The position numbers were made by a program, and so were the translations under genes. The notes below the pieces were generated by a model. It was not told where the DNA came from. It worked only from the letters and a program-made list of their open reading frames with translations, and did no database searches. A DNA stretch of 48,845 bases from Pseudomonadota bacterium (GTDB lineage: Bacteria > Pseudomonadota > Gammaproteobacteria > Acidithiobacillales > Acidithiobacillaceae). Where the stretch lies: the NCBI GenBank assembly GCA_021794385.1, contig JAJYQY010000102.1:1-48845 (forward strand), given 5' to 3'. Positions 2,321 to 11,059 of this stretch are shown piece after piece (positions within the stretch are counted from its first letter, which is position 1; each line of letters opens with the position of its first letter).

Positions 2321-2821
2321 TTAGGGCTTGGCCGCGCGGAAGCGTGGGCTATTGAGCACGCGGGCCAGGATTTGCTGCGCCGCCTGACGGAGCATTTGCC
2401 GTTGCGCGGCGTTTTGTTGTTCGTTGGTGGCCAGTGGACTGGCGCTGTTGAAGCTGAAGCTGTTTTCCACCAGCAGCGGTTGCGGCGGGAGCAGGGTCTT
2501 GCCGTCCGCCCCGACGACGCTGATATCGGCGCGCAGGGTGTTGAGGAACTCCAGGGCGGCGCCGCTCGCCGGGCTGATACTGATGACGCGTTGGCTGATG
2601 CCGGCATTGTCGATGCGCAGCACCGGACCCGTTTTTTGCTGATAGTTGCCCTCCCGTTCCAGCGCCCTTGCCACTGCCTGGGCGAGGCTGCCTCCCGCCG
2701 GCCCGCTGCCTTCCACCCGTATCCCGGCCAGGGTGGGCGGAATGCTGGCTCCATCCTGCAGGTGAAAGCCGCAGGCGCCCAGGCTGAGGGCGAGGCCCAT
2801 GGCCAGCAGCAGCCGTTTCAT
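2321..2821 (-). CDS. lptE: LPS-assembly lipoprotein LptE
   Basis: [24 protein letters not shown]... lipobox LGAC and LptE-type GFHL motif; overlaps the leuS stop by 4 nt. Confidence 0.9.
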
Positions 2822-5292
2822 TGGGCCACCACATTGACGAGGCGGCCCGGCACGATCACCACCTTGCGCACGCTCAGGCCCGCAAGATGCTTCTGCAGCA
2901 GAGGGTGGGCCAGGGCCAGGGCCTCGATGGCCCCAACGTCGGCATCTGCCGGCACCTCCAGGCGTTCCCGCAGTTTGCCGTTGACCTGGACGACGATGGT
3001 GATGACGCTGGTTTGGAGGGCTTTCGGGTCGGCATTGGGCCAGGGGGCAAAGGCCAGTTCCCCCGCTTGCCCGAGTCGTTGCCAGAGGGCCTCGGCAATG
3101 TGTGGTGCGAAGGGTGAGAGGAGCAGCACCATGGAGCGTAAGCCCTCTCCGAGCACGGCGCGGAGGTCCGCCGGGGCGTCGCTGGGCACCTTCATCAGCG
3201 CATTGTTGAGCTCCATGATGGCCGCGATGGCCGCGTTGAAATGATAGCGACCATCCATGTTGCTGCTGACCCGGTCGATGCACTGATGGACGAGCCGCCG
3301 CAGGTCCCGGGCGGCAGGGGAAAGGGTCGCCGGTAAGGGCGGCGGTGTCCGGCCATACTCATGGACCAGGCGCCAGACCCGGTTGAGGAAGCGATAGGCC
3401 CCCTCGACCGCTGTGTCGGACCACTCCAGGTGTTGCTCCGGCGGCGCGGCAAAGAGGATGAAGAGCCGTGCCGTATCCGCGCCATAGCGGTCGATGAGAC
3501 CCTGGGGGTCCACGGTGTTGCCCTTGGACTTGCTCATCTTGACGCCATCCTTGAGCACCATGCCCTGGGTGAGGAGGCGGCGGAAGGGTTCATCGTGGCG
3601 GCCATCGGCCGGGAGGAGACCGGCGTCGCGCAGGAGCTTGTTGAAAAAACGTGCATAGAGCAGATGCAGGACGGCATGCTCGACGCCGCCGATGTACTGA
3701 TCCACCGGCAGCCACCGGGCGGCGCGATCATCCAGCATGGCGGCGGCGTCAGGGCAGGTGAAGCGGGCGTAATACCAGGAACTCTCCACGAAGGTATCCA
3801 TGGTGTCCGTTTCCCGCCGCGCCTCGGCACCGCACCGGGGGCAGGGTACCCGGTAAAAATCGGGGTCGTCCAGGAGCGGGGAGCGGGGGTTGTCCAGGTG
3901 GTAATGGGTGGGCAGGACCACGGGTAGGTCTGCCTCCGGCACCGGCACCACGCCACAGTCGGGGCAGTGGATCATGGGGATGGGGGTACCCCAGTAGCGC
4001 TGCCGGGAGATGCCCCAGTCGCGCAGGCGGTAGTTCACCGTCTTCTGCCCCAGTCCCGCTGCGGTTACGGCGGCGGTGATGCGGGCCTTGGCCGTCTCGT
4101 TATCCAGACCGTCATAGATGCCGGAATGGACGAGGCGGCCCGACCCGGTGTAAGCCCGCTCCAGGGTGCCGGACGGGATTTCCTCTCCCTCCGGAACCAC
4201 GACCACCTGGATCGGCAGGCCGTATTTCCGGGCAAACTCGAAGTCCCGCTGATCGTGGGCGGGCACACTCATCACCGCGCCCTCGCCATAGCCCATGAGG
4301 ATGAAGTTGGCTACCCAGACGGGGAGGGCCTGGCCGGTCAGGGGATGGCGCACGGTGATGGCGGTGGGATAACCCTCCTTTTCCTGGCTTTCCACCGTCG
4401 CTTCGGAGACGGCCACATGCCGGCAGCGTTCGAGGAAGGCGGCCAGTTCGGGCTGGGTCCGGGCCGCGGCCAGGGCCAGCGGGTGTTCCGGGGCAATGGC
4501 CAGATAGGTGGCCCCTAGGAGGGTGTCCGGACGGGTGGTGAAGACCTTGATGACGCCCTCGCCGGCGCTCAGGGGGAAATGGATCTCCGCCCCCTCCGAA
4601 CGGCCGATCCAGTTGCGCTGCATGCTGAGGACCTGGTCCGGCCAGCCTTCGGCCAGATGATCCAGGTCGGTCAGGAGCTCGTCGGCATAGGCGGTGATGC
4701 GCAGGAACCACTGGCGGATCTCGCGCCGCTCCACCAAGGCCCCGGAACGCCAGCCGCGCCCGTCCACCACCTGTTCATTGGCCAGCACCGTCTGGTCCAC
4801 TGGGTCCCAGTTGACGGTGCTGAGTTTCTGGTAGACCAGGCCCTTTTCCCAGAGCCGCACAAAGAGCCATTGCTCCCAGCGATAATATTCCGGTGTGCAG
4901 GTGGCAAACTCCCGCGACCAATCGTAGGACAGCCCCAGCCGCTGCAACTGCCCGCGCATGTGGGCGATGTTGTCGAGGGTCCACTGCGCCGGGGCCAGGC
5001 CGTGTTTCAGGGCGGCGTTTTCGGCGGGCAGGCCAAAGGCGTCCCAGCCCATGGGCTGCAGGACCGCTTTGCCGCGCATCCGCTGATAGCGGGCGATGGC
5101 GTCGCCAATGCTGTAGTTGCGCACATGGCCCATGTGCAGTTGCCCGGAGGGGTAGGGGAACATGGACAGGCAGTAGAACTTTTCGCCGGAGGCATCGTCC
5201 ATGGCGCAGAAAAGCCGGTTTTCCTGCCAACGGCGTTGCACCTCGCTTTCCAAGGTCTGCGGGGAATAAGGAGGGGTATCCTGGTTGGTCAT
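2818..5292 (-). CDS. leuS: Leucyl-tRNA synthetase
   Basis: [22 protein letters not shown] and [12 protein letters not shown] motifs; start taken at [12 protein letters not shown] (5292). Confidence 0.97.
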
Positions 5293-6163: not shown

Positions 6164-6619
6164 ATGCATTTCCGACTATGGAGTGTAATGGTTGGTCTTG
6201 GTTTGTCCGTTACGGGAGTAGGTTGGGCAATGGCGAGTACGGAGATGCCGATGCCTGCCCCCCAGCAGCAATCGTCACCAATGGGAATGGGCGCGGGGCA
6301 GGGTCAGTCTTCGCCGATGCCGATGGGTCCTGCACAAGGCCAGAGCTCGCCACCGGTGAGCCAGGCCGAGGTCAATCGTTTTGCTGCTGCAGTCACCCAG
6401 ATCAAACCCTTGAATGAGCAGATCCACCAGGAGCTGGGGGCAAAGAGCGTGTCGGCGGCGCAGCGTGAGGCCTTGATGAAGCAGTATGGGGCCAAGGTCC
6501 AGGAAGTGCTTTCTGCGCATCAGCTTACGGTGCAGGAATACGGCGTTCTCATGAATAAGGCACAGACCGATCCGGCCTTTGCCCAGCAGGTAGAGGCCGC
6601 CATCAAGGCCCATTCATAA
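6164..6619 (+). CDS. Secreted DUF4168-like protein with Met/Gly/Pro/Gln-rich linker
   Basis: Signal peptide-like N terminus, low-complexity repeats, then VSQAEVNRFAAAVTQIKPLNEQI... DUF4168-like; preceded by GAGGAGG RBS. Confidence 0.7.
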   Translation: MHFRLWSVMVGLGLSVTGVGWAMASTEMPMPAPQQQSSPMGMGAGQGQSSPMPMGPAQGQSSPPVSQAEVNRFAAAVTQIKPLNEQIHQELGAKSVSAAQREALMKQYGAKVQEVLSAHQLTVQEYGVLMNKAQTDPAFAQQVEAAIKAHS

Positions 6620-6644: not shown

Positions 6645-6799
6645 GGACCCGGTATCGGTATAGATGCTGATACCGGCGGCAAGGAATGGCCCGCTTCGGC
6701 GCGACACATTGCGCGAATCGGGCCATTGGCGCGCTCCGCAAAGGGGTTTAGACTACGGCCCAGGAAAATTGCGCGAAAAATGGGGACGGATGGTACGCT

Positions 6800-7600
6800 A
6801 TGGCCGGATTGCCTGAGATCGAATTACTGAAAGAGAGACTCAAACGTGCCATGCTGCACAAACGGCTAGGCACCCTGCAGGTCAGCAATGCCCGGGGTGA
6901 GCATGTTGCCGACGGTGCGGGCATGGAGGATGGGGCGCTCAAGGGGCGGGAAATCACCGACGTGCGCCGCTATGGCCATTACCTCTTTCTGGAGTTGAAC
7001 CGCCAGGACATCCTTGTCATGAACCTCGGGGGTGAGCTGACGGGAGATCTGGAGCGCGGCCCGACGGCGAGCGAGGGGGAAGAAGGCCAGCGGGGGGCGC
7101 TGGAGATTCAGGTGAACGGCCATAACCGGCTGCGGCTGCAGGGAACCCAGTTGCACAATCGCCTGCGCCTCCTGGACGAAAACGCCGATGTCGATTTTCT
7201 TACCAAGCTGGGGCCCGATCCGCTGCTGGTGCATGACGGTCTCGGCGCCTTGCGTGATGCCCTGGCGCGGCGGCGGAGCGCCGTGCGGAATATCCTCCTG
7301 GATGATGCCTTTGTGCCGGGGATTGGCAGCACTTGGGCCGATGAGATCCTCTTCCAGGCCCGCATCCGCCCGGATCGGACGGCCCCGAGCCTCAGCGAGG
7401 AAGAGCGTAGCCGGCTCCTGGAGCAGATCCCACGGGTGTTGGAGCGGGCCGTGCGCTGTCAGGCCAAGCCCGGCCTCTTGCCCAAGACCTATCTTACCCG
7501 CCATCACCACGATGGGCATTGCCCAAGTTGTGGTGGGCCGTTGGGGACCCTCGCAGTGGGCGGTAAAAACGCCCTCTTTTGCCCGGTCTGTCAGCAGTAA
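6800..7600 (+). CDS. Fpg/Nei (MutM)-family protein, divergent, probably non-catalytic as a glycosylase
   Basis: LPEIE N terminus, H2TH-like PGIGSTWADEILFQARIRPDR, C-terminal zinc finger CPSCGGPLGTLAVGGKNALFCPVC; canonical active-site residues absent. Confidence 0.8.
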   Translation: MAGLPEIELLKERLKRAMLHKRLGTLQVSNARGEHVADGAGMEDGALKGREITDVRRYGHYLFLELNRQDILVMNLGGELTGDLERGPTASEGEEGQRGALEIQVNGHNRLRLQGTQLHNRLRLLDENADVDFLTKLGPDPLLVHDGLGALRDALARRRSAVRNILLDDAFVPGIGSTWADEILFQARIRPDRTAPSLSEEERSRLLEQIPRVLERAVRCQAKPGLLPKTYLTRHHHDGHCPSCGGPLGTLAVGGKNALFCPVCQQ

Positions 7601-7652: not shown

Positions 7653-8108
7653 CTATTTGTGCCGCCAGGGTAGCCCTGCCGCCTTCCAGCCTTCCACCGT
7701 TCCCCGCATCCCCTGCTCGTTGGGGCGCCCTTCCAGACCGCCCAGGATGTTGTAACAGTGCTTGTAGCCGAGTGCGGTCAGGTGCTCGGCCGCCGCCTGG
7801 GAACGTCCGCCGGTGCGGCAGAGCAGGAGCAGCAGGTCGTCGGGCTGGGCATGCCGGGTGATTTCCGCGGTGAAATGGGGGTTGGGGGTCATGCCCGGGT
7901 AGAGCTGCCAGGGCACGTGACAACAACCGGGGACGAGGCCGGCAAAATCCAGTTCCGGATGGGATCTCACATCGATGAGCAAGGCCTTGGGGTTGGCCTG
8001 GAGAATGGCATGTGCTTCTTCCGGGGTCAGATCTCCCGCATGGATCTTGCCGCCGGCCTGAGTGCGCGCCTGGGCGCGAGACAAAATTTCCTCGATGGGG
8101 GACTGCAT
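7653..8108 (-). CDS. Rhodanese-like sulfurtransferase
   Basis: ALLIDVRSHPEL...LLLLCRTGGRSQAAAEHLTALGY, rhodanese CxxGGRS active-site loop. Confidence 0.85.
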   Translation of the reverse strand: MQSPIEEILSRAQARTQAGGKIHAGDLTPEEAHAILQANPKALLIDVRSHPELDFAGLVPGCCHVPWQLYPGMTPNPHFTAEITRHAQPDDLLLLLCRTGGRSQAAAEHLTALGYKHCYNILGGLEGRPNEQGMRGTVEGWKAAGLPWRHK

Positions 8109-8288
8109 TTTTCACCTCGTTTAGCGATAATTGCCTGGAATGGCAGGATCTTATTTCTTATTTTAGACTACAAACAAGACCATGTGAAAAATCATACAAT
8201 GATCAACGGGGATGAAAAATCCCTGGGCACTGCCGGAAATCTTTTTTTGGATCGACGTATCGGCACGAGTGCTTTACATGAATTTGCT

Positions 8289-9488
8289 ATGAGGCGGAGC
8301 AAGGGCATGGCGACAGCGGAACCGGTGAGTCGCAAGGAGCGGGGGCGGCAGAATCTGCGCATCACCCTGATGGGTGCGGCCACCAATGTCGTGCTCTTTT
8401 TTGCCAAGCTGGCGGGGGGTATTTTCGGCCACTCCCAGGCGCTGGTGGCCGATGCCGTCCATTCCCTGTCGGACCTCCTCTCGGACTTGGGCCTGATTCT
8501 GGCCATGCGTTTCAGCAGTCAGCCCCCCGATCAGGAACACCCCTACGGTCACGAGCGTTTTGAAACCCTCGCCGCGCTGGCCACCGGCTCCCTGCTGGCG
8601 ATCAATGGCGCCTGGATCGGGGTGGAGGCGGTGCAACGCCTCCTTGCCGGACACTTTGTGGTCCCCCATAGTTGGACCCTGTACATTGCCGCCTTTGCCA
8701 TTGTCGCCAAGGAAACCCTTTACCAGTTCACCATTCGCGTGGCGCGGCGCAACCGTTCCGCCGCATTGCGTGCCAATGCCTGGGATCATCGTACCGATGC
8801 CATCTCCAGCGTCATCGTCTTTATCGGTATCGGCGGCAGTCTGCTGGGCTTCCCCTATCTCGATTCGGTAGTGGCTCTGGTCGTCGCGCTGATGGTCCTG
8901 CGCATCGGTGCCGTGACGGCCTGGGCGGCCATTCAAGAGTTGGCGGATCGCGGTCTGGATGATGCCACCCTGCAGGAAATCCGCGACATCATCCTCGGCA
9001 GTGAAGGGGTGCGCGACCTGCATCTGCTCAAGACCCGCAAGATGGGTCATCAGGCCCTGGCCGAGGTGCATCTGCAGGTAGCGCCGACCCTGAGCGTTTC
9101 CGAAGGACATCAGATCGCCGAGCGGGTGCGTATGGCCTTATTACGGCAGGTGGCGGACCTCATGGATGCCACCATTCATATCGACTGCGAGAATGATGAA
9201 CAGGGCTCGCCGGTCTTGCCGGCGCGCAGCCAGATCGAGGCGACCATCCGGCAGGCGCTCCTGGCCGCCGAACTGCCTCTGCCCGAACAGGTGACCCTGC
9301 ACTACCTCGGCGGTAGTGTCGAGGCCCGCCTACAGTATGTCTTGCCGTCGGCGGGGGCTTTGGATAGCCTTCACCAACTGGAGGGGGCTATTCATCATGC
9401 CTTGGACGGTGGTATTCCCGGTGTTGGCCGGATTGGCGTATTGTGGCGCCATGGCGATAACGGTGATCGAGTACGTTTTGCCTCATGA
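8289..9488 (+). CDS. Cation diffusion facilitator (CDF) family transporter
   Basis: NLRITLMGAATNVVLFFAKLAGGIFGHSQALVADAVHSLSDLLSDL...HPYGHERFETLAAL; exact start uncertain (8289 or 8307). Confidence 0.9.
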   Translation: MRRSKGMATAEPVSRKERGRQNLRITLMGAATNVVLFFAKLAGGIFGHSQALVADAVHSLSDLLSDLGLILAMRFSSQPPDQEHPYGHERFETLAALATGSLLAINGAWIGVEAVQRLLAGHFVVPHSWTLYIAAFAIVAKETLYQFTIRVARRNRSAALRANAWDHRTDAISSVIVFIGIGGSLLGFPYLDSVVALVVALMVLRIGAVTAWAAIQELADRGLDDATLQEIRDIILGSEGVRDLHLLKTRKMGHQALAEVHLQVAPTLSVSEGHQIAERVRMALLRQVADLMDATIHIDCENDEQGSPVLPARSQIEATIRQALLAAELPLPEQVTLHYLGGSVEARLQYVLPSAGALDSLHQLEGAIHHALDGGIPGVGRIGVLWRHGDNGDRVRFAS

Positions 9489-9592: not shown

Positions 9593-9643
9593 TACATTTT
9601 GGGCTACGAAACGGAATAGTTTTCAAACATGGAGGAGATGCAA

Positions 9644-11059
9644 ATGGGTTACAGCCCTAGTGATGTGGTTAAACTGATTCAGGACAAAGATGTCAAATTT
9701 GTGGATTTTCGCTTTACCGATACCAAAGGCAAGGAACAGCATGTCTCCGTGCCCGGCCACACCATCGAGGAAAACACCTTTGTCGATGGCAAGGCCTTTG
9801 ATGGCTCTTCCATTGCCGGTTGGAAAGGCATCAATGAATCGGACATGATCCTCCTCCCCGAAGCCGCCAGCGCCGTTCTCGATCCCTTTACCGACGAAAC
9901 GACCTTGATCATCCGCTGCGACATCATTGAACCGGCCACCGGCCAGGGCTATGAGCGCGACCCGCGCTCCGTGGCCAAGCGCGCCGAGGCCTATCTCAAG
10001 AGCACCGGCATTGCCGATAGCGCCCTTTTCGGGCCCGAAAACGAGTTCTTTGTCTTCGACTCCGTGACCTGGAACATTGATATGAGCGGCTGCGGCTACA
10101 AGGTCGACTCCGAAGAGGCCGCGTGGAATTCGGGCAAGGAGTACGAATCCGGCAACATGGGCCACCGGCCCGGGGTCAAGGGTGGCTATTTCCCCGTACC
10201 ACCCGTGGATTCCGCCCAGGACCTGCGTTCGGCCATGTGCCTGGCCATGGAAGAAATGGGTCTGATCGTCGAAGTGCATCATCATGAGGTGGCCACGGCC
10301 GGCCAGCATGAGATTGGCGTGGCCGCCAACACCCTGACCCGCAAGGCCGACGAGGTGCAGATCCTCAAGTATGTGATCCACAACGTCGCCGCTGCCTATG
10401 GTCAGACCGCCACCTTCATGCCCAAGCCCATCGTCGGCGACAATGGCAGCGGCATGCATGTGCACATGTCCCTGAGCAAGGAGGGCAAGAATCTCTTTGC
10501 CGGTGACCTCTATGGTGGCCTTTCGGAAGTGGCGCTCTATTACATCGGTGGTATCATCAAGCACGCCAAGGCGATCAATGCCCTGACCAACCCCAGTACC
10601 AACAGCTACAAGCGCCTGGTGCCCCATTTTGAAGCGCCGGTACTGCTGGCCTATTCGGCGCGCAATCGTTCTGCCTCCATCCGCATCCCCTTTGTGACCA
10701 ACCCCAAGGGTCGGCGTATCGAGGTGCGTTTCCCGGATTCGACCGCGAATCCCTACTTCGCATTTACCGCCATGCTGATGGCCGGCCTGGATGGTATCCA
10801 GAACAAGATTCATCCGGGAGACGCCATGGACAAGAACCTCTATGATCTGCCGCCCGAAGAGCTCAAGCATGTGCCCGGTGTCTGCGCCTCTCTGGAGGAG
10901 GCCCTGCATGCCCTCGAAGCCGACCATGAGTTCCTGATGAAGGGTGGCGTGTTCAGCGAGAGCTGGCTGGAAGGGTATCTGGATGTAAAATGGGCCGAGG
11001 TGCAAACCCTGCGCATGACCACCCATCCGGTCGAGTTCCAGATGTACTACAGTCTCTAA
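9644..11059 (+). CDS. glnA: Type I glutamine synthetase
   Basis: Full-length GS with [17 protein letters not shown] and adenylylation region [18 protein letters not shown] before [11 protein letters not shown]. Confidence 0.97.

Follow-up and report, generated by a model that had tools for sequence, protein, structure and literature searches.

FpgL, a conserved Fpg/Nei-fold paralogue of the Acidithiobacillaceae lacking most glycosylase active-site residues

The window, a stretch of 48,845 nucleotides from an Acidithiobacillaceae genome, carries an open reading frame for a 266-residue protein of the Fpg/Nei fold, here named FpgL, between a divergent leuS homologue and a convergent rhodanese-domain gene (Table 1). 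ORF calling and alignment confirmed the reading frame, coordinates and motif differences from MutM described in the first-pass annotation, and its view that the fold markers and four-Cys zinc finger are kept is borne out by the Pfam domains: Fapy_DNA_glyco (PF01149) scores 41.8 bits (cut-off 25.5) and H2TH (PF06831) 70.1 bits (cut-off 34.7). The zf-FPG_IleRS model falls slightly below its cut-off (20.2 against 21.3 bits), which is exceeded in the relatives L005 and L028, and the four zinc-finger cysteines are invariant across all clades aligned. FpgL falls far short of the curated equivalog cut-offs, both for MutM (TIGR00577, 121 against 203; NF002211, 121 against 212) and for Nei (PRK10445, 41 against 252; Nei2, 39 against 400); the best PDB match by sequence is plant FPG (3twl). 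FpgL thus belongs to the Fpg/Nei fold superfamily and lies outside the MutM and Nei functional families. The ATG at 6800 is the first ATG, GTG or TTG downstream of the preceding in-frame stop, and an upstream start is impossible in relatives such as L019, whose open frame opens S-MAELPE; with stops directly upstream in relatives, a wrong start codon is ruled out and the N terminus is not mis-called.

Table 1. Features of the FpgL locus. Canonical residues are numbered as in the mature E. coli protein, with P1 directly following Met, in alignment A4. Clades: A, Acidithiobacillaceae FpgL; B, sister family; C, family f122; D, loopless Fpg; E, MutM.
Feature	Position	Strand	Basis or remark
leuS homologue, divergent neighbour	2818..5292	-	upstream in B, C and two genera of clade A
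Promoter-like TTGGCG-17-TAGACT	6726..6754	+	putative; 45 nt before start codon
FpgL CDS	6800..7600	+	PF01149 41.8 bits, PF06831 70.1 bits, TIGR00577 121 bits
Start codon and Ala-Gly replacing Pro1-Glu2	6800..6808	+	alignment
His60 at Lys56 position (RYGHY)	6977..6979	+	Lys in every D, E row and in no A, B, C row
Asn75-Leu-Gly-Gly78 at His70-Met73 positions (HLGM)	7022..7033	+	alignment
Gln117-Leu-His119 at Arg108-Phe110 (DNA wedge)	7148..7156	+	Gln throughout the family; every D, E row has Arg
H2TH domain, residues 137-221	7208..7462	+	PF06831, E 1.6e-19
Ser177-Thr-Trp179 at Asn168-Ile-Tyr170	7328..7336	+	no Asn in any A, B, C row; A and B always have Trp
KPGLLPKT, short stretch replacing the alphaF-beta9 8-oxoG loop (MutM: GTTLRDF...GYF)	7466..7489	+	A4
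Four-Cys zinc finger C241, C244, C261, C264; Lys256 at Arg258 position	7520..7591	+	Pfam and alignment
Rhodanese-domain gene, convergent neighbour	7653..8108	-	PF00581; adjoins FpgL in 8/8 clade A loci compared
Cation-diffusion-facilitator-type (CDF) transporter gene	8283..9488	+	named by eye; synteny marker
glnA homologue	9641..11059	+	named by eye; synteny marker

Comparison of loci by tblastn found the order holA-lptE-leuS (divergent), FpgL, rhodanese gene (convergent), CDF and glnA in two genera of clade A and in the sister-family genome G200. The sister-family genome G054 retains the leuS side, holA, leuS, the rhodanese gene and CDF remain close to FpgL in f122, and in two other clade A genera typA replaces the upstream neighbour. 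The conserved synteny points to vertical descent and rules out a recent horizontal gain or mobile gene; plasmid matches are distant Fpg-type proteins, with about 26% identity for the best among the matches listed. Lying between divergent and convergent genes, FpgL has no operon partner in the loci compared that would hint at a repair pathway. A DUF4168 protein with Met/Pro/Gln-rich repeats (PMGMGAGQGQSSPMPMG) is encoded between leuS and FpgL (6164-6619); of the loci compared, only those from the window's genus have this gene.

The -35/-10 pair of the putative FpgL promoter recurs in 18 genomes from two genera, with a spacer of 17 nt in all but one case (18), while other family members carry a TAGACT or TACACT -10 located 27-41 nt upstream, where only the -10 is clearly conserved. 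A strict sigma-70 consensus scan gave no match at this element. With the promoter-like element as the only conserved feature, no operon and an empty scan, specific regulation of FpgL was rejected as a proposal. Upstream of FpgL in L024, L026 and L028, from one genus, a reverse-strand promoter-like pair TTGGCA...TAGACT directed toward the divergent gene was seen by eye, and TAGACT could be a -10 sequence that these bacteria use widely.

In window FpgL the active-site positions read P1→A, E2→G, K56→H, H70→N, M73→G, R108→Q, F110→H, K154→R, N168→S, Y170→W and R258→K, with Glu5 retained in the LPE motif (A4). The Pro-Glu N terminus of MutM/Fpg glycosylases is thus Ala-Gly, their Lys56, Arg108, Phe110 and Asn168 are all replaced, and the Pro-Glu and Lys expected of a Nei enzyme are missing; a NEIL3-like arrangement is matched only in its non-proline first residue, Glu being Gly and Lys being His. 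Position 1 is Ala in 17/17 family rows and Pro in the sister family and outgroups. Of the 27 family members whose N terminus could be read, 24 begin MAELPE and one MADLPE, so that of the Pro1 and Glu2 losses first reported for this gene the former extends across the family and the latter is limited to the window's genus (2 genomes). Lys56, Met73, Arg108, Phe110 and Asn168 are replaced in 21/21 rows of clades A, B and C and His70 in 20/21, whereas Lys56, His70, Arg108 and Asn168 are present in every loopless Fpg and MutM row. The DPRRFG loop, described initially as absent, has indeed lost R108 and F110 (to Gln and His), but the segment is replaced by GTQLHNRLRLL and not deleted; the earlier wording that essentially all catalytic residues are gone holds for most of them and is slightly strong given Glu5. 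Not listed there were M73→G, R258→K and the absence of the alphaF-beta9 8-oxoG capping loop, which is also missing from the loopless Fpg clade. FpgL is in addition electroneutral (36 K+R, 36 D+E), whereas the same organism's MutM carries about +11.

The K51A mutant of mycobacterial Nei2 has neither lyase nor glycosylase activity, while P2A abolishes the lyase and E3A the glycosylase (PMC11323726); insertion of Met, Arg and Phe (Arg109/Phe111/Met75) by Fpg kinks the DNA and everts the lesion (PMC5422863), phosphates are contacted by Fpg Asn and Arg (PMC4737139), and the short capping loop of plant FPG is the apparent reason for its weak 8-oxoG removal (PMC10573277). With Lys, Pro, Glu, the wedge and the phosphate contacts gone (the zinc-finger Arg being conservatively Lys), ordinary Fpg catalysis by FpgL is very unlikely, and from the alignment we infer that catalysis has been lost.

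An AlphaFold2 model built from 46 sequences (pLDDT 87.9, pTM 0.87, with only residues 92-96 under 50) superposes on Lactococcus Fpg (LlFpg) and plant FPG, its top Foldseek matches in the PDB, with TM scores of about 0.8; it supersedes an earlier model from 11 sequences (pTM 0.57), whose fold matches had low TM scores. The model indicates that the Fpg fold is retained, although some caution is due because its input alignment contains true Fpg proteins.

In a tree of 49 proteins the window FpgL groups with its own family (support 98/97), the sister family joins next at 100/100 and f122 follows at 100/97, forming a clade A+B+C distinct from loopless Fpg and MutM, with each of the five groups split from all the others by a single branch. 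The sister family and f122 keep Pro1-Glu2 in an MPELPE N terminus, so that the initial observation that no PEL start can be restored upstream stands for the Acidithiobacillaceae and not for the sister family, which still has PELPE. In both, K56, the wedge residues M73, R108 and F110, and N168 are already gone, with H70 remaining in 1/4. Since Pro, Glu and Lys are also present in Nei-type enzymes (PMC11323726), their absence from FpgL represents loss, and because the MPELPE relatives are already without the lysine, wedge and phosphate contacts, these were lost first, Pro1→Ala came later as a mark of the whole Acidithiobacillaceae, and Glu2→Gly came last, in the window's genus only. One sister-family FpgL (L103, G054) has a long acidic C-terminal extension of about 60 residues that other members are without.

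FpgL orthologues were found in 29/29 family genomes, single-contig chromosomes included, and in 31/31 sampled genomes of the order; the closest named relative of the window protein is from Acidithiobacillus sulfuriphilus (94% identity). In the class-wide and phylum-wide samples, which cover part of each so that further holders may exist, only one more family (f122) has an orthologue beyond the order, and the next-best matches come from loopless Fpg whose active site is intact, followed by MutM. The window genome also encodes a canonical MutM elsewhere (G000:C140), flanked by release-factor-like and methyltransferase-like ORFs, and a Pfam search for every Fpg gene recovered canonical MutM in 9/9 genomes from three clades; nearly all family genomes have a second, weaker Fpg match, which fits this coexistence. 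In the f122 genomes G264 and G149 (L097, L098, L104, L105) a partly degenerate FpgL coexists with MutM and with a loopless Fpg whose active site is intact; three Fpg-fold genes in one genome make these bacteria well suited to a study of division of labour.

The dN/dS of FpgL is 0.04-0.14, compared with 0.07-0.29 for MutM, and is the lower of the two in every comparable genome pair. Given this purifying selection and the presence of orthologues throughout the family and order, the residue pattern is far beyond chance, and the synteny, low dN/dS and conserved promoter-like element together mark FpgL as an intact, old and maintained gene. Conservation within the family is higher in the C-terminal (H2TH/zinc-finger) half of FpgL than in that of MutM (0.77 against 0.66), the N-terminal halves being equal. 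New invariant residues in clade A (R157, R188, R190, R216, R219, Q221, K223, T233 and R234) include many in the H2TH/helix F region and many arginines.

Several known systems resemble FpgL in part. Alkyltransferase-like proteins have lost their reactive residue and signal damage to excision repair; they retain the lesion pocket, whereas FpgL is without wedge and loop. AlkD2, AlkF and AlkG, built from HEAT-like repeats, and S. pombe Mag2, of HhH fold, have no ancestry in common with FpgL but are non-excising glycosylase paralogues, as FpgL is proposed to be. They bind DNA weakly or by structure without excision, and AlkD2 and Mag2 exist beside an active enzyme (PMC4433238). Within the Fpg fold, canonical MutM (G000:C140) shares with FpgL the two-domain architecture, H2TH, four-Cys zinc finger and LPE with Glu5, and differs in Pro1, Glu2, Lys56, His70, Met73, Arg108, Phe110, Asn168 and the 8-oxoG loop, all absent from FpgL. 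Loopless Fpg (plant FPG1/AtMMH-1; clade D, L106-L110 and L130) resembles FpgL in the shortened stretch that precedes the zinc finger, with its LPxxFL motif, but its bacterial members keep Pro1, Glu2, Lys56, His70, Arg108 and Asn168. Mycobacterial Fpg2/Rv0944 is likewise an extra Fpg paralogue without N-terminal catalytic residues; it is N-terminally truncated (PMC2734929), whereas FpgL has its full length and is conserved throughout an order. In the literature searched, whose coverage is incomplete, we found no publication on the FpgL paralogue.

An ordinary MutM, a pseudogene or an artefact of wrong start, frameshift or contamination could be suspected, as the window's assembly is incomplete (72% complete), but with a separate MutM in the genome, orthologues in every family genome, dN/dS well below 1 and no upstream start we give this almost no credence; decay to a pseudogene is ruled out by the dN/dS and the 31/31 conservation. 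An enzyme of altered chemistry is harder to dismiss, though still improbable. Here the Ala1 amine, exposed on Met removal, would form a Schiff base with AP sites, giving lyase activity or capture without Lys56. An N-terminal Ala would still supply a primary amine, the Met-Ala start is invariant in the family, Glu2 is retained in most members (24/27) and Glu5 is retained; moreover, the N-terminal residue of NEIL3, an active lyase/glycosylase that keeps the adjacent Glu, is Val, and Nei2 P2A still traps 6.1% of input DNA (73% for wild type) (PMC11323726). FpgL, however, also lacks the lysine, missing in all members, whose Nei2 counterpart is essential (lyase and trapping by K51A are undetectable; PMC11323726), the phosphate clamps and wedge are lost, and the window's genus has Gly in place of Glu2.

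Recruitment of the fold outside DNA damage, as a protein scaffold, in RNA or ribosome binding or in transcription control, is a stronger contender that we nonetheless consider rather unlikely. Nearly all known DNA contacts and the MutM-like net positive charge are lost, and the new clade A invariants would fit such a role. FpgL also gives weak NFACT and S13 matches via the H2TH domain, but the catalytically intact loopless Fpg L107 gives them too; they therefore reflect the shared H2TH only, and an argument for an RNA or ribosome role from these matches was dropped. Nor does any neighbouring gene back a specific alternative.

The reading we favour, with somewhat better than even confidence, is that FpgL is a vertically inherited, non-catalytic Fpg/Nei paralogue kept for a non-cutting job, and that 8-oxoG/Fapy repair in the cell probably falls to canonical MutM. 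FpgL would have arisen from an Fpg that had no 8-oxoG capping loop, or from a common ancestor with such enzymes, and its lineage shed the lysine, phosphate contacts and DNA wedge before Pro1 in the Acidithiobacillaceae and Glu2 in the window's genus; with MutM handling 8-oxoG/Fapy, FpgL may have been kept for its non-cutting task mainly through the H2TH/zinc-finger half. Because this half is kept, and by analogy with AlkD2, AlkF/G and Mag2, nucleic-acid binding appears the likeliest such task. As a guess drawn from the same analogy, FpgL might bind abasic, damaged or branched DNA without base excision, the bound site being shielded or passed to another repair system. Counting against DNA binding, FpgL is not electropositive and the canonical DNA contacts are missing, so even this property may be gone. 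Of the original proposal of an Fpg-fold protein repurposed for damage recognition, repurposing is well supported by the predicted fold, the coexisting MutM, the stepwise residue loss and the strong constraint, but damage recognition is less secure, since the Met73/Arg108/Phe110 eversion wedge, the Lys56/His70/Asn168 phosphate contacts and the 8-oxoG loop are lost and the protein is electroneutral.

As only Fpg/Nei glycosylase models match FpgL, repair-gene counts in acidophiles may be overstated. A more tentative possibility, which we would not presently expect to hold, is that FpgL represents a new class of DNA-repair accessory protein, kept in all acidithiobacilli to sense or shield abasic or damaged DNA without cutting it; if so, it would be the Fpg counterpart of the alkyltransferase-like proteins, with intermediates that keep Pro1 and have lost most other active-site residues surviving in sister lineages. 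Living relatives hold successive stages of active-site loss, making the transition from glycosylase to non-enzyme testable, and the system could show whether the nucleophile is lost only after the lysine and wedge. A repair fold held for another job, under constraint stronger than that on the enzyme itself, points to a new function in bacteria used for bioleaching.
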